A program made the translations under genes and the position numbers. Positions 4,656 to 21,864 of a DNA stretch of 64,000 nt are shown piece after piece. Under the pieces are notes generated by a model. It was given only the letters and a program-made list of their open reading frames with translations. It was not told the origin of the DNA and ran no database searches. The stretch comes from Thermodesulfobacterium sp. GTDB taxonomy: Bacteria; Desulfobacterota; Thermodesulfobacteria; Thermodesulfobacteriales; Thermodesulfobacteriaceae. Within the stretch, counting starts at the first letter, position 1. The number at the start of each line of letters is the position of its first letter. The stretch lies in NCBI GenBank assembly GCA_017656385.1, contig JACDNX010000004.1, forward strand, positions 62,001 through 126,000. The letters are read 5' to 3'.

Positions 4656-4739
4656 ATGAATGATTTAAAGAGGTCAACCCATTTAGAAAATGAAAAGATG
4701 AATGATTTAAAGGAGTTAATCCACTTAAGAGATGAAATT
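4656..4739 (+). repeat. 42-bp imperfect tandem duplication at the STAS start
   Basis: Two adjacent 42-bp units (4656-4697 and 4698-4739) begin with the same 15 bases, ATGAATGATTTAAAG, and continue in frame with clear similarity. Each unit begins with an ATG, giving the protein a repeated MNDLK N-terminus. This looks like a recent local duplication of the start region. Confidence 0.75.
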
Positions 4740-5042
4740 TTTGAAACTAATATCTCTTTAAATGTAAAAAATAATGAAGTTATTGTTTCTGGAGATGTAG
4801 TTAGTATAAGTGATTATTGGTTAATTAAAGAAAAGGTAATAAATTTAGTAGAAAAAGGAAATAAAGAAATAATTATAACTTTTAATGATGCTGAATTTCT
4901 TAGTTCTTCTATTATAGGATTTTTTCTAAAACTCACTTTAAAAGATAAAATTAATTTGAAAGTTAAAGTAAAAAATCCTCAACTCTATTCTTTTATGGAA
5001 ATTTTAGGACTTATAAAAACATTTCAAGTAGAAAAAATATAA
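4656..5042 (+). CDS. STAS-domain protein (anti-sigma-factor antagonist type)
   Basis: 128 residues. A STAS domain spans about residues 30-128, with the core strand EIIITFNDAEFL followed by SSSIIG, where SpoIIAA-type proteins have Asp-Ser-Ser-Gly and the phosphorylated Ser. Here the Asp is replaced by Ser but the two following serines remain. In partner switches such a protein is phosphorylated by an HPK-like kinase and dephosphorylated by a PP2C phosphatase, both of which are fused in the next gene 3 nt downstream. The first 28 residues are an imperfect tandem duplication, so translation could begin at 4656 or at the ATG at 4698. Confidence 0.85.
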   Translation: MNDLKRSTHLENEKMNDLKELIHLRDEIFETNISLNVKNNEVIVSGDVVSISDYWLIKEKVINLVEKGNKEIIITFNDAEFLSSSIIGFFLKLTLKDKINLKVKVKNPQLYSFMEILGLIKTFQVEKI

Positions 5043-5045
5043 ATT

Positions 5046-6755
5046 ATGTTTCCTTCTAAAAAAAAAGAAATTTTAGAAATATTTAAAAATTTAAAAGTTC
5101 TTATTATAGACGAAGATGGTCCTTTTTTAAAAAATTTATCAATATTCCTTAAAAAGTTTATTCCTGATCTTTTTATTTGCAATTCCTCTACTCAGGCTTT
5201 AGAACTAATCAAAAATGACAGTTTTGATCTTTTAGTTGTAAATTATTGGTCGTCTCATATTAATGGATTTGAGCTGGTGAATTTTTTCAAAAAATGTAAT
5301 CCTGATGCTGGAATTATTTTGTTAACTTCTGAAGATAAACCTTTAGATAGAGAAACAATCAATAATGGTATAGATAAATATATTTTAAAAACTGAGTATG
5401 AAGAAACCAACAAAAAACTGCTAAAAGCTATTGAAGAAATAATTCAGAGAAAATTTTTAAAGGCTTTTCTTTTAAAAAAAAGAGAAACAGAATTGAAATC
5501 TTTTCAAATATTTATGAAATATTTGAGATATCAACAAGAAAAAGCTTTAAAAAAACAAAAAAATATTATAAAAGATGACTTATTTTATTCCACTTATTTA
5601 AATAAGATTCCTTTTCGACAAAAATTTTTTTATTTTCAAACCTTTTATAAGCCCTCGGAAATCATTAGCGGAGACATTTATTCTTTAAGAATATTAAAAA
5701 ATAATAAAATTTTTTTATTTCTTATAGATGTAAAAGAAAAAGGCATCCCTGCCTCAATAACTGCTTCTTCTGTTGCAGCTTTTTTAAATCATTTAGTAAA
5801 TTTACCAAGAATAGAAATAAAAGAGAACCTTTGTACCTGTGAGGATTGGTTTAAGTTTTTAATAAAAGAGTTTTTAATACATATCAAAGCTTATTTATTA
5901 GAAGATGAAGCTCTATGTGCTTTATTCCTATTAATGGATTTGAAAAATAATAAAGTTTTAATAGCTAATTTTGGAATCCCCTCTATTTATATAATCAAAA
6001 ATTCAAATTTAAAAAAGATCTTGCCTCAAAATTTACCTATTCTTACTTCAACTAAAACTTTTAAAATTGATTCTTTAGAACTTTCAAATATAGATAAAAT
6101 TATTATAACCTCTGATGGAACTTTAAATTGCAAGACGAAAGACTCAAAACTTTATATAAAAGATCTTGAAAAAGATCTATTAAATTCTTCTTGTTTAAAT
6201 GAATGGCGAAATTTATTCGAAGAAAAAGTTAAGAAAATTTCAGATGACATAACTTTAATTTATATAAACTCTTGTAAAATAGACGGTTTTTTTAGAAAAG
6301 AATTCAGAATAAAATCTGATTTAGCTGAAATTGATAAATTTTTATCTCAAGTTTATAGAAGACTTAAAAAAAGTAAATATTTTAATTTTTTAGCACCAAA
6401 AATCACTACTATTTTAAATGAAATATTATTAAATGCTCATGAACATGGAACCTTGGGAGTATCTTCTTTGCAAAAAGAGAAAAAAATTATTAATGGAAGC
6501 TACGAAAATTTTCTCCAACAACAACAACAACAACAACAAATTATAATTAAATTCATCTTATCCCTTTCTAAGAAAGAATTATATATCATTGTAGAGGATA
6601 AAGGTAAGGGGTTTAAAAAATCTCTCATCGAAAATACTCTTGAAAGAACTTTTAGTGGATTTGGATTGAAGATAATTAAACATTTATGTAAAGATTTCTT
6701 TTTCAATAAAAAAGGAAACACAATTGTTGCTATAGTTGATATTAAAAGAAAGTAA
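5046..6755 (+). CDS. receiver(degenerate)-PP2C phosphatase-HATPase kinase, partner-switch regulator
   Basis: 569 residues. A receiver domain (about 15-135) keeps the acidic pocket (IIDED), the Thr of LLTSE and the Lys of ILKTE, but the phospho-acceptor Asp is Asn66 (VVNYW). A SpoIIE/RsbU PP2C domain (about 185-405) keeps [20 protein letters not shown] and SDDITL. A GHKL kinase domain (about 420-565) has [17 protein letters not shown] and GFGLKII. The order matches HsbR of Pseudomonas and CrsR of Shewanella, which both phosphorylate and dephosphorylate a STAS partner. The partner here is most likely the gene just upstream. The gene is extremely AT-rich. Its tail overlaps the convergent receptor-like gene by 14 bp. 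Confidence 0.88.
6516..6539 (+). repeat. (CAA)8 microsatellite encoding eight glutamines
   Basis: Eight perfect CAA codons in the HATPase domain of the partner-switch protein. They lie between the N-box helix and the next core strand, where the fold has a loop. Copy-number change by slippage would keep the reading frame and alter only loop length. Confidence 0.95.
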
Positions 6756-7974
6756 CATCTTCTGTGGTCTTTTTTTCTTTTTCTTTCTCAAATTCTAAAA
6801 GAGTTTTTCGAGCAATCTCTCTTTCTTTTTCCATAGTATAGTGATTTTCAAGTTCTTTTATAATTTCTTCTTTTACACCTATTTCTAAGAGTTCGTCTTT
6901 AAATTCTTCTATATGAATCTCTTCTATTTCTTGGTTCATTTTTTCAATAATATTTAAAATGTGTTGATTCATTTGTTTAGTAATATCTTCAAATTGTAGA
7001 TTAACAATTATTTGATTAATATTTTCGTATATATTGGTATGTTTTACCATAAAATCTTTTTGTTCATCTTTCATTACTATAATAGTGTTCATTAACTCAG
7101 TTGCCATATTTTGAATCAATCCTAATCTTTTTAAAGTTACAATTGTTTCTTTAGCAAATATATTATATAATTTTTCAAAATTTTTTATATTTTCTTGAAA
7201 TTCTAAAATTCGTTCTTTTATTTCTTTAACAAATTGATTAGTATAATCTGCTAATTTTCTAACTTCATCAGCTACTACTGCGAAACCTCTTCCGTGTTCT
7301 CCTGCACGAGCTGCTTCAATAGTTGCATTTAAAGCTAAAAGTTTGGTTTGTTCAGCAATTTGTGCAATACCTTCGGACATTTCATTAATGTTTTCTATAT
7401 TTTCTACCAATTTCTTAATCCTATATTTTCCAGTTATTTCTTTAGTAAACTCACTATCTTCTACCGAACTTGTGATTTTTTGCAAAAATTTTTTCAATTG
7501 AGCATGAATTTCTTCTGTTTTTTCGAGAGCCACACACATTTTATTTAAATTACATTCTTCTTTATGTTCACAGTCTTTTCCTTCAAATTTGAATTCTAAT
7601 ATCTGACATAAACTAAAATTAACTTTTTTTTGCAAATTATCTATTTTTTCAATATTTAAAGCTGTAGTTTTGTCTAATTCTTCCATAAGTTCCATAAATC
7701 TCTGGACGCTATCCTCTGTAGCAGATTGAATATCAAAAGTTGTGGTATTAATAGTTTCACCAATAACTTTTAGCATTTCTTTTTGTCTTATAAATAACTT
7801 TTTTATTGGAACTAAAACACTGGTAATTTTTTGAAGTTCTTCAAAAACTTTATTTTTAGTTTTTTCTAACTTTTTTATTTTGTTTTGATTTTTAAAGATT
7901 ACGAAAATTAAAATTCCTAACCATAAAACAGTATATCCTAAAAAACCTAACAGAATTATCCACCAATAACTCAC
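6742..7974 (-). CDS. membrane-anchored chemoreceptor-like signalling protein
   Basis: 410 residues. One N-terminal membrane segment (about residues 6-28) is followed by coiled coil and a methyl-accepting signalling hairpin with the tip around [20 protein letters not shown] and [15 protein letters not shown]. There is no periplasmic sensor or HAMP domain, so it probably senses or signals from the cytoplasmic face. A cysteine-rich stretch near residues 122-147 (Cys at [13 protein letters not shown]) could bind metal or respond to redox. Near the C-terminus is [10 protein letters not shown], a motif common in MCP-like proteins of this style. Last gene of the chemosensory operon, 30 nt after cheA. 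Confidence 0.85.
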
Positions 7975-8004: not shown

Positions 8005-10914
8005 TTATACAAGCTTTTCGGGGTTTAAGACCAAAACTACTTTCCCATCTCCCATTATGCTTACACCTGATATAATTTCAATGTTTGAAAGTGTCTCTGG
8101 AACTGGCTTAATAGCTATTTCTGTTTTCTTATAAAGTTTATCAATCAAAACTCCAAAACTACCATTTCTAGTTTTTAATACAATAATGGGTAATTCTATA
8201 TTTTTATCATATTCCAATCTGAAAGTTCTCTCTTTTTGATAAAGTAAATTTGTTAATTTTTCACAAGGTAAAATTGAACCTCGATAATAAATACCTATTC
8301 TATCATGAATTCTTCTTATTTTAGAAGCAGGAATTTTTAAAGTTTCTAAAATATAATCAATAGGAATAGCAAAGATTTTATTATTTTCTTCTATTAGAAG
8401 GGCAGATGTTATACCAATGCTTGCAGGGATTACTAAAGTAACTTCTGTACCCCAATCTTTTTCTGAGCTAATATATACCTTTCCACCTAAGGATTCTACT
8501 GTAGTTTTAACTACATCCATCCCGACACCGCGTCCTGAAATATCTGTAACTTCTTCTTTAGTGCTAAATCCTGGCATAAAAATAACATTTAAAAGCTCTG
8601 GATCATCTGGTGATTGAAAAGTGAAGCCCTTTTCTTTAGCTTTTTCAAAAAGCTTTTCTCTGTCAATTCCTTTTCCATCGTCAATTATCTTAATAATAAG
8701 ATTACTTCCTTCTTGAAAAGCATTTAAAATAACTGTACCTTCTTCTGGTTTCCCTTTGGCTTTTCTTTCATCAGGAGGTTCAATTCCATGATCACATGCA
8801 TTTCTAACTAAATGAATTAAAGGATCAGAAAGCATATCTGCAACTTTTTTATCTATTTCTGTCTCCTCTCCCTCAGTAATAAATTTTATTAATTTGCCTT
8901 GTTTTCTTGCTATATCTCGAACTGCTCTATGGAATCTCTGAAATATATTCTTTATAGGGATCATTCTCAGAGACATTACACCCTCTTGGAGACTGTAAGA
9001 GAGTCTGGTAAGTTGATAAAGATTATCTTTAAATGCACGTAAAAATTGTCTATCAAGCTCAAAAAGATTAATTAAAGAATTTAATAAATATTCATAAGTA
9101 TTCCTTACTACCACTAATTCCCCTATAAGATTGGTTAAATTATCAATCTTTCTTTCATCAACTCTCATTGTTTTAATTTCTTCTTCTGCCTTAACAGTAA
9201 CCTTAGAACTAAGCTGAGCACCTGTTTCCATAAGTTTCTGCTTTTGGAGTGCTTCTTGCACATCTTCTTTTTTAATCTTTCCTTCTTCAATCAAAATTTC
9301 CCCTATCTTTTTCTGTTTAGATAAAGCTTCTTTTAAATCTTTTTCAGTAATTTTTCGATCTTCTAATAAAATTTCACCTAATTTTTTAACTCCTCCAGAT
9401 AAAAGACCTTCTAAAAAGGCTTCAATGCTTTTTAATTCTTTCTGAAAATCTTCAATCTTTTTCTCTTCATGAAGAGATAACGCTCTTTCTACCATTTGAG
9501 AAAGAGTATAAAGTCCAATATAAGAAGCTGAAGATTTTATACTTCTCAAAGCTCTTAAAATAATTTTTAAATTCTGCTCATCTAAACCCTTAGGAAGATA
9601 AATTTTTATGATATCTCTAAATTGAGAAGCCTGATCCAAAAAAATGTTAAGTGTGTCTTCCGGAGGCAAAGTTTCCTTAGATAAGATTGGTTCCTCCTTT
9701 AAAGGTTCTTTAGAAGATAAAATCTCTTTTAACTCACTTTCTACCTGATGAATAGTAGAAGGATACCCTTTATTAGTTTTTAAATTAACAATAGTAATTC
9801 TCAGAATATCTATAGCTTTCAACAAAGTATCTATAATTGTTGGAGTTCTTTTAACTTTTCCAGATCTTAATCTCTCAAGGAGTGTTTCCAAATTATGACA
9901 AAATTTAGCTAAAACATTTAGACCAATATAATCAGCATCTCCTTTTAAAGTATGCACAGCTCTAAAAATTGCATTTAACGCTTCTAAAGAATTATCCTTT
10001 TCATAAGCAAGGATATTTTTTTCTATAGTGTCTAAAGCTTCAAAAGCATCTATCATGAATTCATTAAAGACATCTTTATCTATAGCTTCAAAAGGAATAA
10101 ATTCTTCAGCTTCCTCAGGAACTTTAAACTGTAATGATAAGTCTATAATTTCAATTAAAGTTTCATCAAAAACTAAATCTTTTATCTCTTCTGTATTTAA
10201 ATCTGTTGCGATATAAATTACAGGTTGCAAATAAAGAGTTAAAGGATTAAAATCCTTTATAGGAGGAACGGTGGAAATATCTGTTATAGCTTGATAGTAA
10301 ACTGTATTGGATTTTAGATTTTTAAGAAAAATTAAAGGATCAAAACCATTTATGTATTCATCTGTAGTATATTTTACCAATATTTTATATACTTTATAAC
10401 CTCTTTCATAATAATCCTTTAAATTTTCAACTATATCTAAAGGTATTTCTTCTCTTTTAATAGAAATTGCTTCTTCTTTATGTATTTTTTCAGAAGTTTC
10501 GATGTCTCTAATATTTTCAGATTCTTTGCTTGGAATAGCAAAACTTTTAAATTTTTCTATTAATTCATAATTTATTTCTGGTTTAAGTCCTTTTTCACAA
10601 TCTTCAATCATTTTAGCTATATAATCAAGTCCATTTAAAATTATATCCACAATTTCAGAGGTAAGTTGTATTTCTCTATTTCTTAATTTATCAAGCAAAG
10701 TTTCTAAATGATGAGCAAATTCTGATATTTCTTCCAGTTCAAATCCACCTGCACTTCCTTTAATAGTATGAACCCCTCTAAAGATAGAATTAAGGAGTTC
10801 TATATTATCAGGTTCTGTTTCAGCTTTTAAAACATCTTCGGTTGCCTTTTCTATAATTTCTTTAGCTTCTACATAGAATTGTCTACGATAATATTCCATT
10901 TCATCCATCATCAT
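8005..10914 (-). CDS. cheA: CheA histidine kinase with three Hpt-like domains
   Basis: 969 residues from the ATG at 10914, preferred over the GTG at 10923 because AAGGGG lies about 8 nt upstream. Domains in order: Hpt 1 (phospho-His49 in HTIKGSAG); Hpt 2 (His321 in HTLKGDADYIG); a third Hpt-like bundle whose His is Arg457 (RSIKSSASYIG); two tandem repeats of the LGEIL/KITEKDLKEAL type at about 505-560; then dimerisation, HATPase (HLVRNACDHG, DDGKGID, GRGVGMDVV) and C-terminal CheW domains. It phosphorylates CheY and CheB partners encoded around it. Long multi-Hpt CheA proteins are typical of non-classical chemosensory systems. It is the only CheA in the window. Confidence 0.97.
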   Translation of the reverse strand: MMMDEMEYYRRQFYVEAKEIIEKATEDVLKAETEPDNIELLNSIFRGVHTIKGSAGGFELEEISEFAHHLETLLDKLRNREIQLTSEIVDIILNGLDYIAKMIEDCEKGLKPEINYELIEKFKSFAIPSKESENIRDIETSEKIHKEEAISIKREEIPLDIVENLKDYYERGYKVYKILVKYTTDEYINGFDPLIFLKNLKSNTVYYQAITDISTVPPIKDFNPLTLYLQPVIYIATDLNTEEIKDLVFDETLIEIIDLSLQFKVPEEAEEFIPFEAIDKDVFNEFMIDAFEALDTIEKNILAYEKDNSLEALNAIFRAVHTLKGDADYIGLNVLAKFCHNLETLLERLRSGKVKRTPTIIDTLLKAIDILRITIVNLKTNKGYPSTIHQVESELKEILSSKEPLKEEPILSKETLPPEDTLNIFLDQASQFRDIIKIYLPKGLDEQNLKIILRALRSIKSSASYIGLYTLSQMVERALSLHEEKKIEDFQKELKSIEAFLEGLLSGGVKKLGEILLEDRKITEKDLKEALSKQKKIGEILIEEGKIKKEDVQEALQKQKLMETGAQLSSKVTVKAEEEIKTMRVDERKIDNLTNLIGELVVVRNTYEYLLNSLINLFELDRQFLRAFKDNLYQLTRLSYSLQEGVMSLRMIPIKNIFQRFHRAVRDIARKQGKLIKFITEGEETEIDKKVADMLSDPLIHLVRNACDHGIEPPDERKAKGKPEEGTVILNAFQEGSNLIIKIIDDGKGIDREKLFEKAKEKGFTFQSPDDPELLNVIFMPGFSTKEEVTDISGRGVGMDVVKTTVESLGGKVYISSEKDWGTEVTLVIPASIGITSALLIEENNKIFAIPIDYILETLKIPASKIRRIHDRIGIYYRGSILPCEKLTNLLYQKERTFRLEYDKNIELPIIVLKTRNGSFGVLIDKLYKKTEIAIKPVPETLSNIEIISGVSIMGDGKVVLVLNPEKLV

Positions 10915-10926
10915 ATTTAACACCCC

Positions 10927-11295
10927 TTATCCTATAATTTTCTTTACTACACTTACGAGGACATCTGGTTTAAAAGGTTTTACAATCCAAGCTTTAGCTC
11001 CTGCTTTCCTTCCTTCTTCTTTTTTGGCTTCTTGACTTTCTGTAGTGAGCATTATTACTGGAATAAATCTATACTTCATATCTGCTTTTAAAGTTTTAAT
11101 TAGTTCTATTCCATCCATATTAGGCATATTTAAATCGGTAATTATTAAATCTACCTTACCTACCGAAGAAAGTTTGGTAAGAGCATCTTTTCCATCAGAA
11201 GCTTCTACAACCTCATATCCGCTTTTCTTCAAAGTCATAGCGACTAATCCTCTCATAGAAGCAGCATCATCTACAATAAGAATTTTTTTACCCAT
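10927..11295 (-). CDS. cheY: CheY-like response regulator
   Basis: 122 residues, a receiver domain alone. It shows the acidic pair (VDDA), phospho-acceptor Asp in IITDLNMPNMDG, Thr in MLTTES and Lys in VKPF. There is no output domain, so it acts by protein contact, for instance with the flagellar switch or other partners. It lies 4-12 nt from cheA and the STAS gene and is the likely phosphoryl acceptor of this CheA. Alternative: a sink for phosphate. Confidence 0.95.
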   Translation of the reverse strand: MGKKILIVDDAASMRGLVAMTLKKSGYEVVEASDGKDALTKLSSVGKVDLIITDLNMPNMDGIELIKTLKADMKYRFIPVIMLTTESQEAKKEEGRKAGAKAWIVKPFKPDVLVSVVKKIIG

Positions 11296-11584: not shown

Positions 11585-11956
11585 TTATTCTCCTCCTAAA
11601 AGCATTTTAATATGTGTAATTAAAGCCTGAGGTTTAACAGGTTTTACTATATACAAATTAGCTCCCGCTTCGTATCCTTTTTGCCTATTAATAGCTTCTT
11701 CTTGAGTGGTAATAATAATTATGGGTGTTTCTTTATCTAATTCTCTATACTTCTTAATAAAAGTTAATCCATCCATTCTTGGCATATTTATATCACAAAG
11801 AATTAAATCATATTCATCTGTTAAAGCTTTTTCCAAAGCCTCCACTCCATCTGCAGCACCATCTACTTGAAAACCTGCTGATTTTAAAATATTTCCATGA
11901 AAACTTCTAACTACATGGGAATCATCTACTATTAAAACCTTTCTTATCTCCTTCAT
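11585..11956 (-). CDS. cheY: CheY-like response regulator
   Basis: 123 residues, single receiver domain with VDDSH, phospho-acceptor Asp in LILCDINMPRMDG, Thr in IITTQE and VKPVKP. The sequence differs clearly from the other CheY in the operon, for example in the HVVRSFHGNILKSAG first helix, so the two are not recent duplicates and may have different targets. It is followed by the STAS gene and preceded by cheR at 4 nt. Confidence 0.95.
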   Translation of the reverse strand: MKEIRKVLIVDDSHVVRSFHGNILKSAGFQVDGAADGVEALEKALTDEYDLILCDINMPRMDGLTFIKKYRELDKETPIIIITTQEEAINRQKGYEAGANLYIVKPVKPQALITHIKMLLGGE

Positions 11957-11960
11957 AACT

Positions 11961-12800
11961 TTACTCCTTAGTATAAACTATATGTCCTCCTAATTTTTTA
12001 ATTTTAAAGGCATTGGTAATACGAGCTAAAGATTCGGAACTTCCAAGAAAAATATATCCTCCTTTATTTAAGGCAATATAAAAATGGTCCACTACTTTTT
12101 TGCGGGAGATTTCATCAAAATAGATAAGAACATTTCTACAAAAAATGAAATCAAAACCCCGCTTTTTTCTTAAACTTAAAAAATCCATTAAATTTAAATG
12201 CTCAAATTTAACCAATTTTTTAACCTCATCTTTTATTTTGTATTTATCTTTTATTATTTTAAAATATTTCTTTATATATTCTGTAGGAACATGTTTTACA
12301 CTTCTCCATTCATAAATACCCTCTTGAGCTTTTCTCAAAGCTTCCTTATCAATATCAGTTGCTAAAATTTCAATACTCCAGCTATTAACATCTTCTAACA
12401 TTTCGTATAAAATAATCGAGATAGTATAAGGTTCTTCTCCTGTGGAACAACCTGCTGACCAAATCTTTAAATTATCATCCCCTATTTTTATCTTTTTTTT
12501 TAATAGTTCAGGCAAACAGTATTCTGCAAAGGCTTGAAGTTGAGGAAAATCTCTAAAAAAATAGGTCTCATTTATAGTAATAAGATCAACTAAATTTTGG
12601 AGTTCCTCACCGTTTTTATCCCCAAATTTAAGTCTCCTTAAATAAGCAATGGGATCTGTAATACCCAATTCCTGCATACGTTTTTCTATTCTCTTAGAAA
12701 GAAAATAGAATTTTTTTTGATCAAAACGGATACCAGTTTTTCTATAAATAAAATCTGCAAATTTTTCAAAATCTTCTAAAGTAAGATTAATTCCCTCCAT
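11961..12800 (-). CDS. cheR: CheR chemoreceptor methyltransferase
   Basis: 279 residues from the ATG at 12800, which has GAGGG about 8 nt upstream; a longer start at 12815 is less likely. An N-terminal helical CheR domain is followed by the SAM-binding domain with WSAGCSTGEEPYTISI, LATDIDKEAL, and FDFIFCRNVLIYFD. It methylates Glu residues of the receptors, opposing CheB. It overlaps the end of the HEAT-repeat gene by 14 nt. No TPR tail is attached. Confidence 0.96.
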   Translation of the reverse strand: MEGINLTLEDFEKFADFIYRKTGIRFDQKKFYFLSKRIEKRMQELGITDPIAYLRRLKFGDKNGEELQNLVDLITINETYFFRDFPQLQAFAEYCLPELLKKKIKIGDDNLKIWSAGCSTGEEPYTISIILYEMLEDVNSWSIEILATDIDKEALRKAQEGIYEWRSVKHVPTEYIKKYFKIIKDKYKIKDEVKKLVKFEHLNLMDFLSLRKKRGFDFIFCRNVLIYFDEISRKKVVDHFYIALNKGGYIFLGSSESLARITNAFKIKKLGGHIVYTKE

Positions 12801-13680
12801 TAAAACAACCCTCACTTAAATAGGTTTTTAGTCCTTCCTCTACAGTAGGGTCATCTTTAATGTATTGATAAATATTATGAATTTGCTCTAATTTTTTTAA
12901 TTCTGGAAATCTTTGACAGATTTTAATTAAAAAATCTATTAAATCGTAAGCATAAACTGGATCATATTTAACAATCTCTAATAAATACATAATATCATCT
13001 TTTTCTCCTAAATCTGCTACTAATTTCATAAGTTCTGGCAAGAAAATTATATTCTCCTCTGTAACCTTTTTTTCAGGTAACACCATTTCGATAATATCTT
13101 TTATTTTGAATCCTTCTTTTATTTCTCTTAAAGCATGTAAAATTGAAACCCTAAGCATGGGCTCAGGATCTTTTTTAAAAAGTTCTATTAATTCTGGCAA
13201 ACTTTCTTTATCTCTTAATTTTCCTAAGTATTCTACAGCTGTAATTTGAACATTTTTAGAAGAATCATAAAGAGAAGCTCTTATAGCCATAAGAGCTGAT
13301 GGTGTGCCAAGCCCAACTAAACTATCTAAAATAAGTTTTCGAACTTCTTTATTAGAGTGATCAAGTTTAGAAGCTAAAAAGGCTACAGCTCCTTCTTTAT
13401 CTGAACTTGAAGCAAAAATTTCTACAGCTGCATTTCTTAAATAGGCATCTGGAGAAGAAAATAGTTCAAAAAGTCTTTCATAAATAGAAGAAATATCCAT
13501 ATTTTTTAAAGCTTCTACTATAGCGTCTTTAACCGCTATGCTTTCGTCAGTGATTAATTTTTCGACTAAATCTGGAAGAAGTTCAGTAATATTATTGTCC
13601 ATAATATCATGCACTGTATAAATTCTTTCAGCTTCGTCTGGATGGTTTAATTTTTTTCTTAATTCTTCTACACTATCCAT
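12787..13680 (-). CDS. HEAT-repeat protein of the che operon
   Basis: 297 residues from the ATG at 13680, which has GGAGGG immediately upstream; the TTG at 13701 is a weaker choice. The protein is a run of roughly five to six HEAT/PBS-lyase-type helical repeats with recurring patterns such as DPEPMLRVSILHAL and SSDAYLRNAAVEIF-like units. Such repeats are protein-binding scaffolds. HEAT proteins occur in some chemosensory operons between cheB and cheR, as here; a role in organising adaptation enzymes is inferred from position. Confidence 0.85.
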   Translation of the reverse strand: MDSVEELRKKLNHPDEAERIYTVHDIMDNNITELLPDLVEKLITDESIAVKDAIVEALKNMDISSIYERLFELFSSPDAYLRNAAVEIFASSSDKEGAVAFLASKLDHSNKEVRKLILDSLVGLGTPSALMAIRASLYDSSKNVQITAVEYLGKLRDKESLPELIELFKKDPEPMLRVSILHALREIKEGFKIKDIIEMVLPEKKVTEENIIFLPELMKLVADLGEKDDIMYLLEIVKYDPVYAYDLIDFLIKICQRFPELKKLEQIHNIYQYIKDDPTVEEGLKTYLSEGCFNGGN

Positions 13681-13697
13681 AAGTCCCTCCAAAGCTA

Positions 13698-14786
13698 TCA
13701 ATTAGCTAAACGATTTACCGCTTTTATTATTTCTTCTGCTATTTGATAACTTGGAGCTATAATTTCAGCTCCTCCCCTTTCTATAGCTTCCTTAGGCATA
13801 CCGAACACTATAGCTGTTTCTTCAGATTCTGCGATAGTAACACCACCTGCTTTTCTTATTTTTACCATAGCATTAGCCCCATCATCTCCCATTCCTGTAA
13901 GAAGAACCCCTACAGTATTCCTTCCAAAAACATTTAAAACTGATTCCATCATTATATCTACAGAGGGTATGAAAAGATGAGGGGGGTTAGTAGAAAGTCT
14001 TATTCTAATAACCTCTGATGCTTTTTTCAGTAAAAGATGATATCCACCTTTTCCTAAATATCCACGAGATTTTTTAACAACATCTCCTGCTTCAGCTTCT
14101 TTAATAAAAATTTGAGAATAGGCATCTAATCTTTTAGCAAAAGAATTAGTAAAAGATGGAGGCATATGTTGAACAATAAATATTGCAGCAGGAAGATCTG
14201 CAGGTAATTCCGGAATAATATCCATTAAGGTTTTAGGACCTCCAGTAGAAGCTCCTATAGCTACTGCTACAGGAATTTCTTTGGCAATTTCTTTTATTTC
14301 TGGTATAGATGGTTTAACAACTTTTCTTCTGGGAGGAATTCTTTTTCTAACTTTTTTAAAAAGTTTATAAAAAATTAATTTCTTTTTAGCTGCTGCCTTT
14401 ACTTTTTCTATAATTTCATCAGCTACTTGTTTTAAATTTAGTGATATAGTCCCCCCTGGTTTAGCAACATAATCAAAAGCTCCTAATTCTAAAGCTTGAA
14501 AAGTAATTTCAGCTCCTTCTTGGGTCAATGAACTTACCATAACTACTGGACAAATTTCTTCTTCTACAATATACTTTAATACAGTTAATCCATCCATACC
14601 CGGCATATTTACATCTAATGTAATCACATCAGGTTCGAGTTTACGTGCCTTTTCTAAGGCATCTTCCCCATCTCGAGCTGTAGCTATTACTTCTATTTCA
14701 GGATCTGATTCCAAAATTTCTCTTAACATTTTTCGCATTAAAGCTGAATCATCAACTACCAGAACCCTAATCTTCTTTTTCATCAT
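13698..14786 (-). CDS. cheB: CheB chemoreceptor methylesterase
   Basis: 362 residues: receiver domain (VVDDSALMRK, phospho-Asp in ITLDVNMPGMDG) joined to a methylesterase domain from about residue 165. The catalytic triad is visible: Ser in GASTGGPKT, His in IVQHMPPSFT and Asp in LTGMGDDGANAM. It demethylates or deamidates receptors when phosphorylated by CheA. The start overlaps the CheW gene by 20 nt and AAGGATA precedes it. Confidence 0.97.
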   Translation of the reverse strand: MMKKKIRVLVVDDSALMRKMLREILESDPEIEVIATARDGEDALEKARKLEPDVITLDVNMPGMDGLTVLKYIVEEEICPVVMVSSLTQEGAEITFQALELGAFDYVAKPGGTISLNLKQVADEIIEKVKAAAKKKLIFYKLFKKVRKRIPPRRKVVKPSIPEIKEIAKEIPVAVAIGASTGGPKTLMDIIPELPADLPAAIFIVQHMPPSFTNSFAKRLDAYSQIFIKEAEAGDVVKKSRGYLGKGGYHLLLKKASEVIRIRLSTNPPHLFIPSVDIMMESVLNVFGRNTVGVLLTGMGDDGANAMVKIRKAGGVTIAESEETAIVFGMPKEAIERGGAEIIAPSYQIAEEIIKAVNRLAN

Positions 14787-16677
14787 CTTTTATCCTTTTA
14801 AGTGTTTTTTTCTTTCTTTTAGGTTTTTCAGAAGGTTTTTCAGAAGAAGGTTCTGGAACTGTAGTTTCTTCAGAAGACATTAAAGTTTCTAATTTTTCTT
14901 TTTCTTCATCACTTAAAACATTCAAAATATCTATTACTAAAATTATTTTATCTTTTTTTTCCAGTTTGCAAATTGCTTTAATGAAACGAGTATCTATATT
15001 TTCAGCAATAATTTCTGGTGGAGTCTCTAAACTATTCTTTGAAATTCTTAAAACCTCAGAAACTGAATCTACTACAAAACCAACTAATTTATCTTGCAAT
15101 TTTACTATAATTACTTTGGTCGTTTCATCATATGGGCGAAATTCCATTTCAAATCTTTTTCTTAAATCAATAACAGGGATTACATTTCCTCTAAGATTCA
15201 TAACACCTTCTACAAAATAAGGAGCTCTTGGAACAGAAGTTATACTTTCCACTCTGTTAATTTCCTGAACATCTTCTATAGGAATAGCAAAATCAACTTC
15301 AGCAAGTCTAAAGGTAACTAATTGAATTTCTTCTGTAACTGTAGTAACTTCTTTTTCTAATTTTTCTTCTTTTTTAACCATTTCCTTCAACTCCTCAATA
15401 GTTTTTTTATCAAATAAGCTTTCTTCAGAAATAAGCATAATAATTCTCTTTCCTTCTTCCAATTTTGCTATACCTTTTAAATTGTCACTTTTTTCAGTTT
15501 TTAAAATCTCAGGCGGTTTTTCTATAGAATCTTTAGCCACTCTGATTACCTGTTTTATTCTATCTACTAAAATACCTATAGGGGTATTAAAGATTTCCAG
15601 CACCAAAATTCTTTGATCTTCTTTAATGTCTTCAGAAATAGCTTCCTTTAAATTTTTAAAATGCCTTTTTAATTTTTCAAATACAGGTAACATGTCATTT
15701 TCAAAAAATTGCAGGGCTGATTCTTTACTATGTTCTTTAACTTTTTGTAAAGTTATTTTAGCCAGTTCATGAAAAAGTTGATGGTCTTTTTTCATAACCT
15801 CGATAGTTTGATTTATCTTTTCACTTGAAGTAATAAATCTTTTCATCCACAAACCAAAGCCACATTTATCAGGATCAAGTTCACCTCTAAAGGGACTTCC
15901 TGTTTCTATGGAATTTTTTAAATCTCTTACAAAATCTTCGTGTTCTTTCAAAATTTTATCTACTTCCTGATTTACATCTCTGGCTAAATCTGAAAAACCG
16001 AATAATTTTCTTAAATCTATTACAGGAAGTAAAGTATCTCTTACAGCCAAAATTCCAAGAATATATTCAGAAGTTTCTGGAACTTCAGTAATATTACCCA
16101 CTCTCAAAATTTCTTTTACTATTTCTATAGGAAAAGCATATTCTTCCCCAGCAATTGAAAAAGTAACTAATTGAACTTCCTCTATATGCTTTTTTTCTTC
16201 TTCCTTTTCCTCTTTGAATACTTGAGTACTTCTTTTAGTTTCTGAAGCGGTTATCTCAATCTTACATAAATTTTCTAAATTAAGTTTAAGAATAAGCTGA
16301 CCGTTTTTCCTTATAACTCCAGAAATATATTCCTTTTCTATTTCAGAAGATAAAACTTGAGGAGGTGGCTCAACTTCATTCTCTTCCACATCTATTACTC
16401 CCTTTACCTGATCTACTATTAATCCCAAAAAAGTTTTACCTATATCTAAGATTAATACCCTGGTATGAGGAGTAATTTCTATATTAGAAATATCCAACTT
16501 AATACGAGTATCAATAACTGGAATAATAATTCCTCTTAAATTAGCCAGACCTTTTAAATATTTAGGGGCTTTGGGAACCTCGGTAATTTCTGGATATCTT
16601 ATAATCTCTTTTATTAAATTAGTATCTATACCAAATATTTCTTTTCCTAATTGAAAAGTAACTATTTGGTTTCCCAT
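14767..16677 (-). CDS. triple-CheW coupling protein with nested zinc-binding CZB domain
   Basis: 636 residues with three CheW domains: about 1-140, 168-405 (interrupted) and 440-605, then a charged tail rich in Pro/Ser/Lys. Each CheW has the LRG/VRD turn and PVID strand. Between the two halves of the second CheW lies a CZB domain (about 243-345) with all four expected zinc ligands: His246 (HEDF), Cys272 (DPDKCGFGLW), His299 and His303 (DHQLFHEL). CZB domains bind zinc and respond to zinc or oxidants; CheW links receptors to CheA. This would place an input sensor in the coupling protein. RBS GGGGGGAA precedes the ATG. Confidence 0.93.
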   Translation of the reverse strand: MGNQIVTFQLGKEIFGIDTNLIKEIIRYPEITEVPKAPKYLKGLANLRGIIIPVIDTRIKLDISNIEITPHTRVLILDIGKTFLGLIVDQVKGVIDVEENEVEPPPQVLSSEIEKEYISGVIRKNGQLILKLNLENLCKIEITASETKRSTQVFKEEKEEEKKHIEEVQLVTFSIAGEEYAFPIEIVKEILRVGNITEVPETSEYILGILAVRDTLLPVIDLRKLFGFSDLARDVNQEVDKILKEHEDFVRDLKNSIETGSPFRGELDPDKCGFGLWMKRFITSSEKINQTIEVMKKDHQLFHELAKITLQKVKEHSKESALQFFENDMLPVFEKLKRHFKNLKEAISEDIKEDQRILVLEIFNTPIGILVDRIKQVIRVAKDSIEKPPEILKTEKSDNLKGIAKLEEGKRIIMLISEESLFDKKTIEELKEMVKKEEKLEKEVTTVTEEIQLVTFRLAEVDFAIPIEDVQEINRVESITSVPRAPYFVEGVMNLRGNVIPVIDLRKRFEMEFRPYDETTKVIIVKLQDKLVGFVVDSVSEVLRISKNSLETPPEIIAENIDTRFIKAICKLEKKDKIILVIDILNVLSDEEKEKLETLMSSEETTVPEPSSEKPSEKPKRKKKTLKRIKDDEKED

Positions 16678-16692
16678 TTTTATTCCCCCCTT

Positions 16693-18645
16693 TTACATAC
16701 TTTGCAATTCATCAGCAAGAGAAGCTATCTCTTCTATAGCTTGAGAAAGTTCTTGGACTCCTCTGGCTTGCTCTTCTGCGGCTGCAGCTGCTTCTGCAAC
16801 AGCTTTAGCAGCTTCTTCAGCTGCTGAGGCAATTTGATCTATAGCCTTTTTAGATTCTTCAATAGCTTTTAAGGATTCCTGAGAAAGATCTAAACTTTCT
16901 TTAAGTGCTTTAAGTATATCTTTCATATCTTCTTCTATTTTAATAAAAGATTGAGATGCCACTTTTGATTTTTCTGCTTCCCCTTTAGCAGTTTTAGCAG
17001 CAAGTTCTATTTCTTGCATACATACATTAATTAAATCTTGTAAATTTCTTACCAAATCTTTAATTTTGTCTGCATTTTCTGCTGATTCTGTAGCAAGATT
17101 TCTTATATCACTTGCTACTACAGAAAAACCTTTACCGTATTCTCCAGCTCGGGCTGCTTCAATAGAACCGCTTACAGCAAGCATATTAGTTAAAATTGTT
17201 ACATTCATAATAACCTCAACTATTTTTTCAATCTTTCTGGTGTGTTTTTCTAAAATTTTTATATTTTCCAAAGCTCTTAAATTATCTTCAGCAGATTGTT
17301 TAATATTTTCAATCATATTATCCACATTGATTTTATTCTCAGCTAACAATTTGCTGACCTCTTCACAATCTTTTACAAGTTGATTTGCTCTACCTTCTAT
17401 TTGTTTGGCAGAAGCTACAAGTCTTTCTGCTATCTCATCGGCATTTTGAGCTTCTTTGGCTTGAAGTTCTGAAGCGGTTTTTATTTGATCAATAGCTTGA
17501 GCAAGTTCTTGAGCAGCTGTACTGGTTTCTTCTATATTAGCAGAAAGCTCCTCTGCCATAGCAGCTACTTCTTCAGCAGATTTTTTAGTATCTGTAGAAG
17601 TTTTTAATTCTTCAGCTACTTGTGCTAATTCTTGAGAAGCTATAGACATCTCACTAAATGCTTTGGCTTGCATTTCCGTCCCTTTTCTTGCTTCTTCTGC
17701 TGAAGATGCAAGCTCTTCTGCTGCTGTAGCAATTTGTTCTGCACTTTTCAAAAAGTTTTTTGCTTCATCTGAAGACCTATTTGCTACATTTACTATTTCT
17801 TCAGTTGCTTTAAAAAACTCATCCATTTTTTGAACTATATTTCTTAATTCCTCTCTTATTGTTTTTCCTTTTTCAGCCTCATTTTTAGCATTATTACTTA
17901 TTTGATTAATTTCATCTACTACTGTTCTTACTGAATTTTGAATTTCTGCCACTAATTCTCTTATATCTCGAGCACTTTTCTCCGAAGTTTCAGCAAGATT
18001 TCTAACTTCATCAGCTACTACTGCAAAACCTCTTCCGTGTTCCCCTGCACGAGCTGCTTCAATAGCTGCATTTAAAGCTAATAAATTGGTTTGATCAGCA
18101 ATCCTTACTACTGCTTGAACAATATTTCCTATTTCCTCGGATTGTTTTTCAAGTTCTTCCATCAGTTTAGAAGTTTCAAGAGCGGCTTCAGAGGCATTAT
18201 GAACACCTTCAATTAAGAGTTCAATTTGAGAAGAAGTATCTTCGATTAAATTTTTAATACTTTTTACTTTTTCTAAATTCTGTTGAGCATTTTGAGCTAT
18301 TCTTGCAGAGCCCTTTTCTATTTGAACTACAGACGCACGAATTTGTTCAGAAGCACCACTTGCTTCTTCAGCACCAGCAGCAATCTGTTCCATAGAACGA
18401 TTAAGTTCTTCTGCAGCAGCACTTGATTCTTCAATAGCTGAAGCAAGCTCTTCTGACGCTGCAGCTATTCTTTCAGCTATTTGCTGCTGTTTAGCAAGAG
18501 TTCGAGCACGAGCTTTTTCCTGAGCAAGTTTTTTAGCTTTCTCTCTTTTAAGAGACAAACCTTCTTCTTCAGCTATCCCTTTAGGATGCTCTTCTGGTTT
18601 AGCTAAACCTTTAGATTTAATCCCTAATTTTTTTTCTTCAGCCAT
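16693..18645 (-). CDS. cytoplasmic chemoreceptor with two tandem signalling hairpins
   Basis: 650 residues, nearly all alpha-helical coiled coil. There is no membrane segment and no ligand-binding domain; the first 50 residues are a charged Lys/Glu/Ala-rich leader. Two receptor tips occur: a canonical one near residues 180-215 ([20 protein letters not shown]) and a diverged one near 480-515 ([20 protein letters not shown]). The helices are rich in Ala-Ala-Glu-Glu, typical of methylation helices. Preceded by AAGGAGGGGGG and by a FliA-type promoter. Probably the core receptor of a soluble array with the triple CheW. Confidence 0.92.
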
Positions 18646-18733: not shown

Positions 18734-19177
18734 TTATCTCTCAGACTGCAAAATTTGTAAATTTTCTTTAAGAATGGAATTCTCTGGAAAATTTTTTATT
18801 CCCTCTTTAAGAATTTTAATCGCCTCTTCCTCTCTCCCTACTTCAGCATATAATACTGCTAAATTATTTATTGCTTTTGCATTAGGTTTTAATAAATTAG
18901 AAAGACGATAATAAAATATAGCTTCTTCAATTAAACCTTCATCCTCACATCTTAAACCTATTCTAAAAAACAAACGGGAAAGCTCTGGAATATTTTTAAA
19001 AAATTGAACTATCAACTGATGAGTTTCCTGAAGCAGAAAATTGATATCTTTTTCTTTAAGTGCAACTTTAACATTTTTTATACTTTCTAAAATTTCAGGA
19101 ATTTCAGGATAAACTTCAGAAACTTGAAAAAGTATATTTTCTTTTATTAACTCTTTAAGTTTTACACCTTTTGCCAT
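18734..19177 (-). CDS. TPR protein linked to ParA and chemoreceptor
   Basis: 147 residues. The C-terminal half carries about two tetratricopeptide repeats (FYYRLSNLLKPNAKAINNLA and the following AVLYAEVGREEEAIKILKEG); the N-terminal half is helical and not recognised. Its ATG comes right after the parA stop, so the pair is translationally coupled. By analogy with adaptor proteins that connect ParA-like ATPases to cytoplasmic arrays it could be the array-ParA link; this is inferred. Confidence 0.75.
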   Translation of the reverse strand: MAKGVKLKELIKENILFQVSEVYPEIPEILESIKNVKVALKEKDINFLLQETHQLIVQFFKNIPELSRLFFRIGLRCEDEGLIEEAIFYYRLSNLLKPNAKAINNLAVLYAEVGREEEAIKILKEGIKNFPENSILKENLQILQSER

Positions 19178-19179
19178 CT

Positions 19180-19926
19180 TTAAACTCCTAAAAGAAGTTC
19201 TTCAGCAAGCATGTGAAAATCGTAGGCAGCTTTGGATCGAGGAGCATATAAAATAATTGGAAGTTGATGCCAAGCAGCTTCAGATATTTTTATATCTATC
19301 CTAATACCTCTTTTGATAACATCATTTCCAAATGTATCTTTTAACTCTTTTAAAATTGCATTAGCGTGTTTGGTTCTCATATCAACCATTACCGGGATAA
19401 TGCCAGATAAAATAATATTAGGATTATATTTTTCAGAGATAGTATATAAAAGCCCTAATAATTGAGCCAGACCTTCCATTGCAAGAAATTGAAGAGGCAT
19501 AGGAACCATAAGTTCGGTAGAAACCGAAAGACAAAAAGTTAAAATATCTTCTCTTCCTGGAGGAGTATCTATTAAAATAAAATCGTATTTTGAACTTATT
19601 TCAGAAAATATATCTTTATACTTCAACTCAGAACCATAAAGTATATAAGAATTGTCTTTATGAAACGAAGGAATTATATCAAAAAGTTTATGAGAGGGAG
19701 TTTTTATTAGATTTTCAATATGAAAATTATTAAAAAGTGAACCTGCTCCTTTTAAAGGAGAATAAGGATTAAGCCCTGAAATTAAAGTAGCATGACACTG
19801 AGGATCTAAATCAACCACTAAACATTTTTTACCTTTATTGCCAAGAGCAGCTGCTAAATTAACTACTGTAGTAGTTTTTCCACTACCTCCTTTTTTATTT
19901 GCAAATGTAATAATTCTTACACTCAT
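19180..19926 (-). CDS. ParA/MinD-family ATPase, probable chemosensory array positioner
   Basis: 248 residues with the deviant Walker A KKGGSGKTT, the DLDPQ motif and LIDTPPG (Walker B). No HTH or ParB is encoded nearby, arguing against plasmid partition. ParA-type proteins encoded in chemosensory operons (PpfA of Rhodobacter, ParC of Vibrio) segregate or polarly place arrays, and this gene leads straight into a cytoplasmic receptor gene. No Shine-Dalgarno is visible before the ATG; instead a large inverted repeat occupies the leader, suggesting control there. Confidence 0.88.
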   Translation of the reverse strand: MSVRIITFANKKGGSGKTTTVVNLAAALGNKGKKCLVVDLDPQCHATLISGLNPYSPLKGAGSLFNNFHIENLIKTPSHKLFDIIPSFHKDNSYILYGSELKYKDIFSEISSKYDFILIDTPPGREDILTFCLSVSTELMVPMPLQFLAMEGLAQLLGLLYTISEKYNPNIILSGIIPVMVDMRTKHANAILKELKDTFGNDVIKRGIRIDIKISEAAWHQLPIILYAPRSKAAYDFHMLAEELLLGV

Positions 19927-20175: not shown

Positions 20176-21864
20176 TTAACGGGGATTTGAGGATAAACTT
20201 TCAAATTCTTCTATGGGCATAGGTTTAGCTAAATAAAATCCCTGTAAATAATCTACTCCGAGAATATAAAGCAAATCTGAAAGTTTTTCCTCTTCTACAA
20301 ATTCAGCAATAGTTTTAATTCCCAGTTCTTTAGCCATCAAAACTATAGCTTTTATTATACTAAAGTATTTCCTTGATTTTAAAATCCCTTTAACGATGGA
20401 TCCGTCTATTTTTAAGAAATCAACTTCACTACTTAATAAATAAGAAAAAGAAGCATAACCTGCTCCAAAATCATCTATGGCAAGATAAATCTTTTCTTCT
20501 TTTATAGCTTTTGTCAGCATAGGTAATAATTTAATATTTTCTATAAAAGAATTTTCAGTAATTTCAAATACTGGATAAACCTCATATTTTTCAACTATTT
20601 CTTTTAAAAATTCTACCTGTTTTATAAGAGCATTTATCTTCTCTATTCCTTTCACAGTTTTATTAATGAATAAATACCTATTCTTAAATAGTTTTAAAAA
20701 TTTTTCTTTATTTATTTTTTCAAACAATATATTCTCAAGTTCATCAATATAACCTTTTTCATTAGCAATTTGTATAAACTTTTCCGGCTTAACTATTTCT
20801 CCTTTCCCATCAAAAATTCTAAGTAAAACTTCACCACCTATTATTTTTCTTTTTTCTGAATCAAAAATAGGTTGAATAAAAGGAATTACTTTTTTTTCAG
20901 AAATTGCTTTTTCCAATAATTTACTAATATGATTAATTTCTTTAATTTCTTCCAAAAATTTTTTATTAAACAGTTTCCAAGTATTTTTACCTTCAGACTT
21001 GGCTTTTTTTAATGCTATTTCACAAGCTCTAAGAAGTTCAGAAACAGTTTCACCATCCTTAGGATAAAAAGCAACTCCTAAGGAGGCTGTAATTTTTATA
21101 GATTCTCCTTTATATTTAAATTCATATTTTCTCACTAAATCCATTGTATTTTCTATTAATTCTAAGGATTCTGTGAATGTATAATCATAAAAAGCTATTA
21201 AAAACTGATCTCCTTCTGCCTTTCCTAAAAAACACTTAGGTATGATTAGTTCATTTATTAAATAATTAGTAAAATCGTTAAGTAAAACGTCCCCCAAATC
21301 AAAACCATATTCAAGATTTATTTCCAAAAAATTATCTATATCAAGTAAAATAACAATGATATTTTTATTTAATAGTGTGTATTTATTTAAAAGTGCTAAA
21401 AATTTATCTTTTGAAAGAATGCGCGTATCAATTTCTTCAAAGATATCCCTTTGAAAGGGTTGATATTCCTCTAACTTTTTTTTCAAAAAATCAACAAACT
21501 TTTTGTCAAATTCTTTTAAATGTGTGTGAGGAAACTTTTCAAAAAGTTCTAACACATCAATTAAATATTCTTTTCCTTTTTCTTTTTTTGTTAAAATTTC
21601 TCTTATTTTCCTTTTTTCAAATTCATGTTCCTTTTTGTGGTTTTCCAATTCGGGATAACCAACTTTTTCCATTAAGGTTTCTTCAGTAGCTATATGATTT
21701 ATAATCACCTTAAAAATTTCATCTAAAATTTTATCTATTTTTTCTTTTGGATATCCAGACCTATTTGCAAAGTAAAGGAAATTCATTAAATCTAATAGTT
21801 CTTTATGTTGCTCATCTATTTTTTTAATTTCTAAAACTAATTCTTTCCACTCTGCAATATTCAC
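20176..21864 (-). CDS. bacteriohemerythrin-GGDEF(degenerate)-EAL protein
   Basis: 562 residues from a GTG start with GGAGAG upstream. Residues 1-135 are a bacteriohemerythrin with the full di-iron ligand set: IDEQH, HIATE, HKKEH and HLKEFD. A GGDEF domain (about 150-300) reads EGDQF, losing the first Gly and the catalytic Glu. The EAL domain (about 310-560) has EVLLR for EALLR, then Asn, ITENS, DDFGAGY, KIDGS, AEFVE and QGF, so metal ligands are largely kept. Expected role: oxygen- or NO/redox-controlled breakdown or binding of c-di-GMP in the cytosol. It stands alone, 250 bp upstream of the chemosensory operon on the same strand. Confidence 0.9.
   Translation of the reverse strand: MNIAEWKELVLEIKKIDEQHKELLDLMNFLYFANRSGYPKEKIDKILDEIFKVIINHIATEETLMEKVGYPELENHKKEHEFEKRKIREILTKKEKGKEYLIDVLELFEKFPHTHLKEFDKKFVDFLKKKLEEYQPFQRDIFEEIDTRILSKDKFLALLNKYTLLNKNIIVILLDIDNFLEINLEYGFDLGDVLLNDFTNYLINELIIPKCFLGKAEGDQFLIAFYDYTFTESLELIENTMDLVRKYEFKYKGESIKITASLGVAFYPKDGETVSELLRACEIALKKAKSEGKNTWKLFNKKFLEEIKEINHISKLLEKAISEKKVIPFIQPIFDSEKRKIIGGEVLLRIFDGKGEIVKPEKFIQIANEKGYIDELENILFEKINKEKFLKLFKNRYLFINKTVKGIEKINALIKQVEFLKEIVEKYEVYPVFEITENSFIENIKLLPMLTKAIKEEKIYLAIDDFGAGYASFSYLLSSEVDFLKIDGSIVKGILKSRKYFSIIKAIVLMAKELGIKTIAEFVEEEKLSDLLYILGVDYLQGFYLAKPMPIEEFESLSSNPR

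Follow-up and report, generated by a model that had tools for sequence, protein, structure and literature searches.

A nested CZB domain in the triple-CheW coupling protein of an F9-class Thermodesulfobacterium gene cluster, a candidate sensor in the array baseplate

F9 arrays, known sensors and the Thermodesulfobacterium cluster

F9 chemosensory systems bear the combination of a DosM receptor and a triple CheW as their signature (PMC9321776, PMC7534058). In Vibrio cholerae the F9 system (cluster I) forms structurally striking, double-layer and purely cytoplasmic arrays which are observed when oxygen is low or cells are starved, and neither a function nor a sensed input has been assigned to them in the literature (PMC7534058). 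The CZB domains characterised to date are sensors, which in TlpD and DgcZ work through a cysteine-zinc site (PMC12871147, PMC8262984); in these two, oxidation of the zinc-bound cysteine releases the zinc and changes the bundle, and zinc-bound TlpD is the kinase-on form (PMC12871147). Joins of CheW and CZB, which the first-pass annotation of the present DNA had given as known, are indeed on record and make up 1.4% of CZB proteins (PMC8262984). In addition, CheWS of Treponema denticola, a CheW fused to a CheR-like SAM sensor, is a precedent for a coupling protein that carries a sensor (PMC10653840).

The window analysed here is a stretch of 64,000 nucleotides from Thermodesulfobacterium sp. (contig JACDNX010000004.1, positions 62,001 to 126,000). 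Its minus strand carries, in this order, the genes of a ParA-type ATPase (19180-19926), a TPR protein (18734-19177), a DosM-like soluble receptor of 650 aa with two signalling tips and neither a transmembrane (TM) segment nor a sensor domain (16693-18645), the triple-CheW coupling protein with CZB, hereafter CheW3-CZB, of 636 aa (14767-16677), CheB, with a 20-nt overlap at the stop of CheW3 (13698-14786), a HEAT-repeat protein (12787-13701), CheR (11961-12815), two CheY-like response regulators (11585-11956 and 10927-11295), CheA of 972 aa with three Hpt stretches (8005-10923) and a second receptor, or MCP, with one N-terminal TM segment (6742-7974). The core of receptor, CheW3, CheB, CheR and CheA recurs with accessory genes in G290, G222, G030, G215, G018, G116 and G375, the clusters varying in that some genes are missing, added or lost at contig ends.

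Because a tandem-tip DosM-like receptor and a triple CheW are the hallmarks of F9, the host cluster is, as far as its genes alone tell, an F9-class chemosensory system: three concatenated CheW domains, a DosM-type receptor with two signalling domains and the lack of a TM segment in that receptor (the highest 19-residue hydropathy is 1.6, at the second tip) were all found. As with VC1402 of V. cholerae cluster I, the three concatenated CheW domains are encoded next to the receptor gene. A triple CheW beside a sensorless tandem receptor is normal for F9, a context that the first-pass annotation missed; its remark that the neighbouring receptor has no sensor is right for the adjacent gene and does not extend to the vicinity, where the second receptor lies downstream of cheA. 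The tips of the DosM-like receptor are exactly 300 residues apart in the window and in G030, G290, G215 and G116 (L062, L059, L061 and L064), counted only in species where the pattern found both tips, and this constancy suggests that the two baseplates keep a set spacing.

The present protein is a new variant of two known types, F9 CheW3 and CheW-CZB, the ingredients of which are each known. VC1402 is described as a plain triple CheW, whereas the window protein has a CZB in its middle CheW. The CheW-CZB proteins on record (PMC8262984) likewise unite both domains in one chain, but the single forms have one CheW only, were orphan genes at the inspected loci and make up a clade of their own in the CheW and CZB trees. 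The window CZB shares with those of TlpD and DgcZ the His-Cys-His-His ligands, the motif C-x-F-G-x-W and the four-helix bundle, although these are terminal domains on a receptor or a cyclase and do not lie inside a coupling domain. CheWS differs in its C-terminal CheR-like domain, its single CheW and its different array type.

The CZB domain within the second CheW domain

The first-pass annotation had placed a triple CheW with a CZB in its second domain at 14767-16677. The gene is there, supported by the ORF and by Pfam, and only its strand had to be corrected to minus, the plus strand showing stops throughout. The Pfam search returned four CheW stretches (343.5 bits), which the scan of the organism's own genome resolves into two complete domains and two half domains that flank the CZB (profile positions 1-65 and 55-136). 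The protein consists of CheW domain 1 (aa 3-145, 16243-16671), the N-terminal half of CheW domain 2 (aa 168-228, 15994-16176), the CZB domain within the inter-subdomain loop of CheW2 (aa 229-352, 15622-15993), the C-terminal half of CheW2 (aa 353-425, 15403-15621) and CheW domain 3 (aa 450-592, 14902-15330).

CZB (PF13682) was matched by Pfam at residues 246-307 with an E-value of 4e-6 and 27.5 bits, slightly below the cut-off of 29.4, and in the own-genome scan it reached 31.9 bits, above the cut-off. The score in the former search is the one point in favour of taking the CZB for a domain attached by a plain linker or for an error of annotation, a reading that is scarcely credible in view of the following. 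In CheW2, profile positions 5-65 correspond to residues 13-73 of the solved CheW structure 2QDL and positions 189-250 to residues 79-139, and because the halves thus map on both sides of the insert, about 120 residues replace the 5-residue loop of 2QDL between 73 and 79. The homolog that takes the corresponding place in the operon of G018, a member of the same family, is a triple CheW of 504 aa in which the halves of CheW2 are joined without an insert. Furthermore, in the 12 of 395 phylum genomes that have a CheW3 without CZB, the match is interrupted precisely over the CZB columns, its pieces lying within a single ORF, and the proteins of this kind taken for the tree have 7-29 residues at that position. 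Modelled alone, the CZB segment of 132 residues gave a mean pLDDT of 87 and a four-helix bundle (helices 4-35, 49-56, 62-91 and 94-131) spanning from just past one CheW half to just before the other; its first match in the PDB is 3T9O, the CZB of DgcZ, with a probability of 1.00, a TM-score of 0.64-0.76 and an E-value of only 0.02. A full-length AlphaFold2 model with four orthologs had a pLDDT of 36, unusable for the CheW parts, so that the good fold of the CZB refers to the segment alone. Unbroken homologs, flanking half domains, this independent structural match and the nesting found in 9 homologs of the triple and 12 of the single type contradict a linker-joined CZB, and a chance Pfam match was likewise rejected. 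The insertion into CheW2 is far beyond chance, and the nesting first noticed in the sequence is borne out.

The four predicted zinc ligands lie at precisely the residues first proposed, namely His246 (15940-15942), Cys272, which would also be the redox-active thiol (15862-15864), His299 (15781-15783) and His303 (15769-15771), all on the minus strand. They are unchanged in four sequences of the Thermodesulfobacterium group (the window protein and three orthologs, one of T. hydrogeniphilum and the others of two more Thermodesulfobacteriota MAGs) and are all present in G290 and G222 too. The complete site is not always retained, because in the lineage of G030, G215 and G425 the first His is a Phe, the Cys and the other two His being kept. 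In these three genomes (L062, L061, L147) a CRSETE motif supplies a new Cys near the Phe-variant CZB, which is possibly a rebuilt metal site; the CZB of G215 was missed by Pfam. The dN/dS ratio is 0.23-0.61 in the CZB against 0.05-0.23 in the CheW parts with the ligands retained, values that mark the CZB as being under purifying selection with invariant ligands; its faster evolution counts against a sensor.

Distribution and history

A triple CheW with CZB, matched end to end, occurs in 6 of 395 phylum genomes, and in 1 of 22 and 2 of 46 genomes of two orders searched, which gives 9 genomes overall of about 450 related ones; within the genus Thermodesulfobacterium it was found in 4 of the 14 genomes searched. 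Among these related genomes the architecture CheW-CheW(CZB)-CheW, for which a search had been proposed, is thus sparse, as foreseen. Nesting as such is not unusual: 12 of the 395 phylum genomes have a single CheW with CZB, and since all 12 of these proteins carry it in the same loop, nesting is the usual way in which CheW and CZB are combined in the phylum. Of the initial impression that the nested triple form is uncommon, the part concerning the triple protein thus stands and that concerning the nesting does not. No nested CheW-CZB was found in viral contigs or in the plasmid collection. A triple CheW homolog without CZB is encoded on plasmid pMO1 of Marinitoga okinawensis (L027, 7995-9302), beside two MCPs and c-di-GMP enzymes.

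In the tree of CheW domains, the CZB-bearing CheW2s cluster with CZB-less CheW2s, apart from the clade of single CheW-CZB proteins (100/99), in a tree that left out ordinary single CheWs and calls for caution over long branches. The CZB tree likewise sets triple forms apart from single ones, each as a supported group. Because the two forms separate in both trees, the capture of CZB at least twice at the same CheW loop is suggested, with the qualification that a joint clade of triple and single CZBs is not rejected (p-AU 0.305). Inheritance of the CheW3 CZB together with its CheW from single CheW-CZB proteins was discarded, as the trees put this CheW2 among CZB-less CheW3 homologs. Within CheW3, a single gain of CZB is not rejected either (p-AU 0.115), and a single gain with losses is not separable from several gains. 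The CheW3 of G018 (L063), of the same family, falls in a different, supported clade, which suggests horizontal exchange of F9 clusters.

Possible roles of the nested domain and other candidate inputs

On balance it is probable that the CheW3 of this F9-class cluster, with its nested CZB and predicted His-Cys-His-His zinc site, is itself a sensory input; most likely the array baseplate would itself take in a zinc or thiol-redox signal. CheW3-CZB would be part of the CheA/CheW baseplate in a cytoplasmic array for which the sensorless DosM-like receptor would provide the scaffold. The CZB bundle would change shape with the occupancy of its zinc site, or when the zinc-bound Cys272 is oxidised or modified; since each end of the bundle leads directly into a subdomain of CheW2, this would alter the CheW2 geometry and shift the kinase activity of CheA. 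Connecting the CheW subdomains directly, the bundle could change the way in which CheW2 links CheA to the receptor tips. In this anaerobe, zinc, thiol or oxygen stress is a more plausible signal than HOCl. To our knowledge, the known CZB domains act in homodimers, and this counts against a CheW3-CZB sensor. A wider and more tentative idea is that the inter-subdomain loop of CheW may be a plug-in port for sensors, where CZB would have been captured independently at least twice, and that the F9 baseplate rather than the receptors may sense zinc or redox state, bypassing the sensorless DosM-like scaffold.

The CZB could instead be a structural or dimerisation module which spaces or stiffens the CheW3 baseplate, the zinc being an ion that stabilises the fold and not a signal. 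This is rather unlikely. The insert is kept in G030, G215 and G425 in spite of the lost first ligand, it evolves faster than CheW, CheW3 does without it in 12 genomes, and in a thermophile zinc might have a stabilising function; however, the four ligands do not vary within the Thermodesulfobacterium group, G290 and G222 have them too, and sensing is the role of the CZB domains investigated to date (PMC8262984, PMC12871147). Less probable still, the input may come through a receptor, for instance the membrane MCP downstream of cheA or another one, with the CZB only tuning the gain. The MCP gene follows cheA and its product could be the sensor, with cysteines kept in G002, and the V. cholerae F9 system implies another cytoplasmic receptor besides DosM (PMC7534058). 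Against this, the MCP carries a TM segment, could be part of a different array and has no recognised sensor domain. A structural role keeps its share of probability, given that cheA is followed by this MCP, which has a TM segment and four conserved cysteines, and that one triple lineage lacks the first His.

If CheW3-CZB is indeed a sensor, a subset of F9 arrays would have a concrete input, and the baseplate side of a chemosensory array could serve as an entry point for signals. The CheW3 homologs without CZB are ready natural controls.

Some further features of the locus deserve mention. The motif of the MCP (6742-7974) is C-x11-C-x5-C-x5-C, is kept in the diverged ortholog of G002 (L144) and is possibly a metal or redox site. 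Within CheA, at 9238-9384 of the minus strand, lies a pair of MshEN-type c-di-GMP-binding motifs (NCBIfam NF053729, 50.6 bits against a cut-off of 38), in both of which the key Arg is a Lys; a CheA-like ORF of G290 (L145) has a stretch similar to this region, and the pair is possibly a second baseplate-side input. Elsewhere in the same genome, two proteins (L001, 1366-3138, and L002, 1369-3039) combine a CxxCH motif in their N-terminal part with a CZB at the C-terminus; that of L002 has lost the CZB Cys and showed no match to MCP signalling domains when the organism's own genome was scanned. A hemerythrin-GGDEF-EAL gene (20176-21864) lies upstream of parA in the window, and in G290, too, parA has a hemerythrin gene beside it (L059, 13692-14183), possibly a link to oxygen. 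Moreover, the cluster is adjoined by a SpoIIE-phosphatase/receiver/ATPase protein on the plus strand (4656-6755) with a small upstream ORF, which together look like a partner-switching module.
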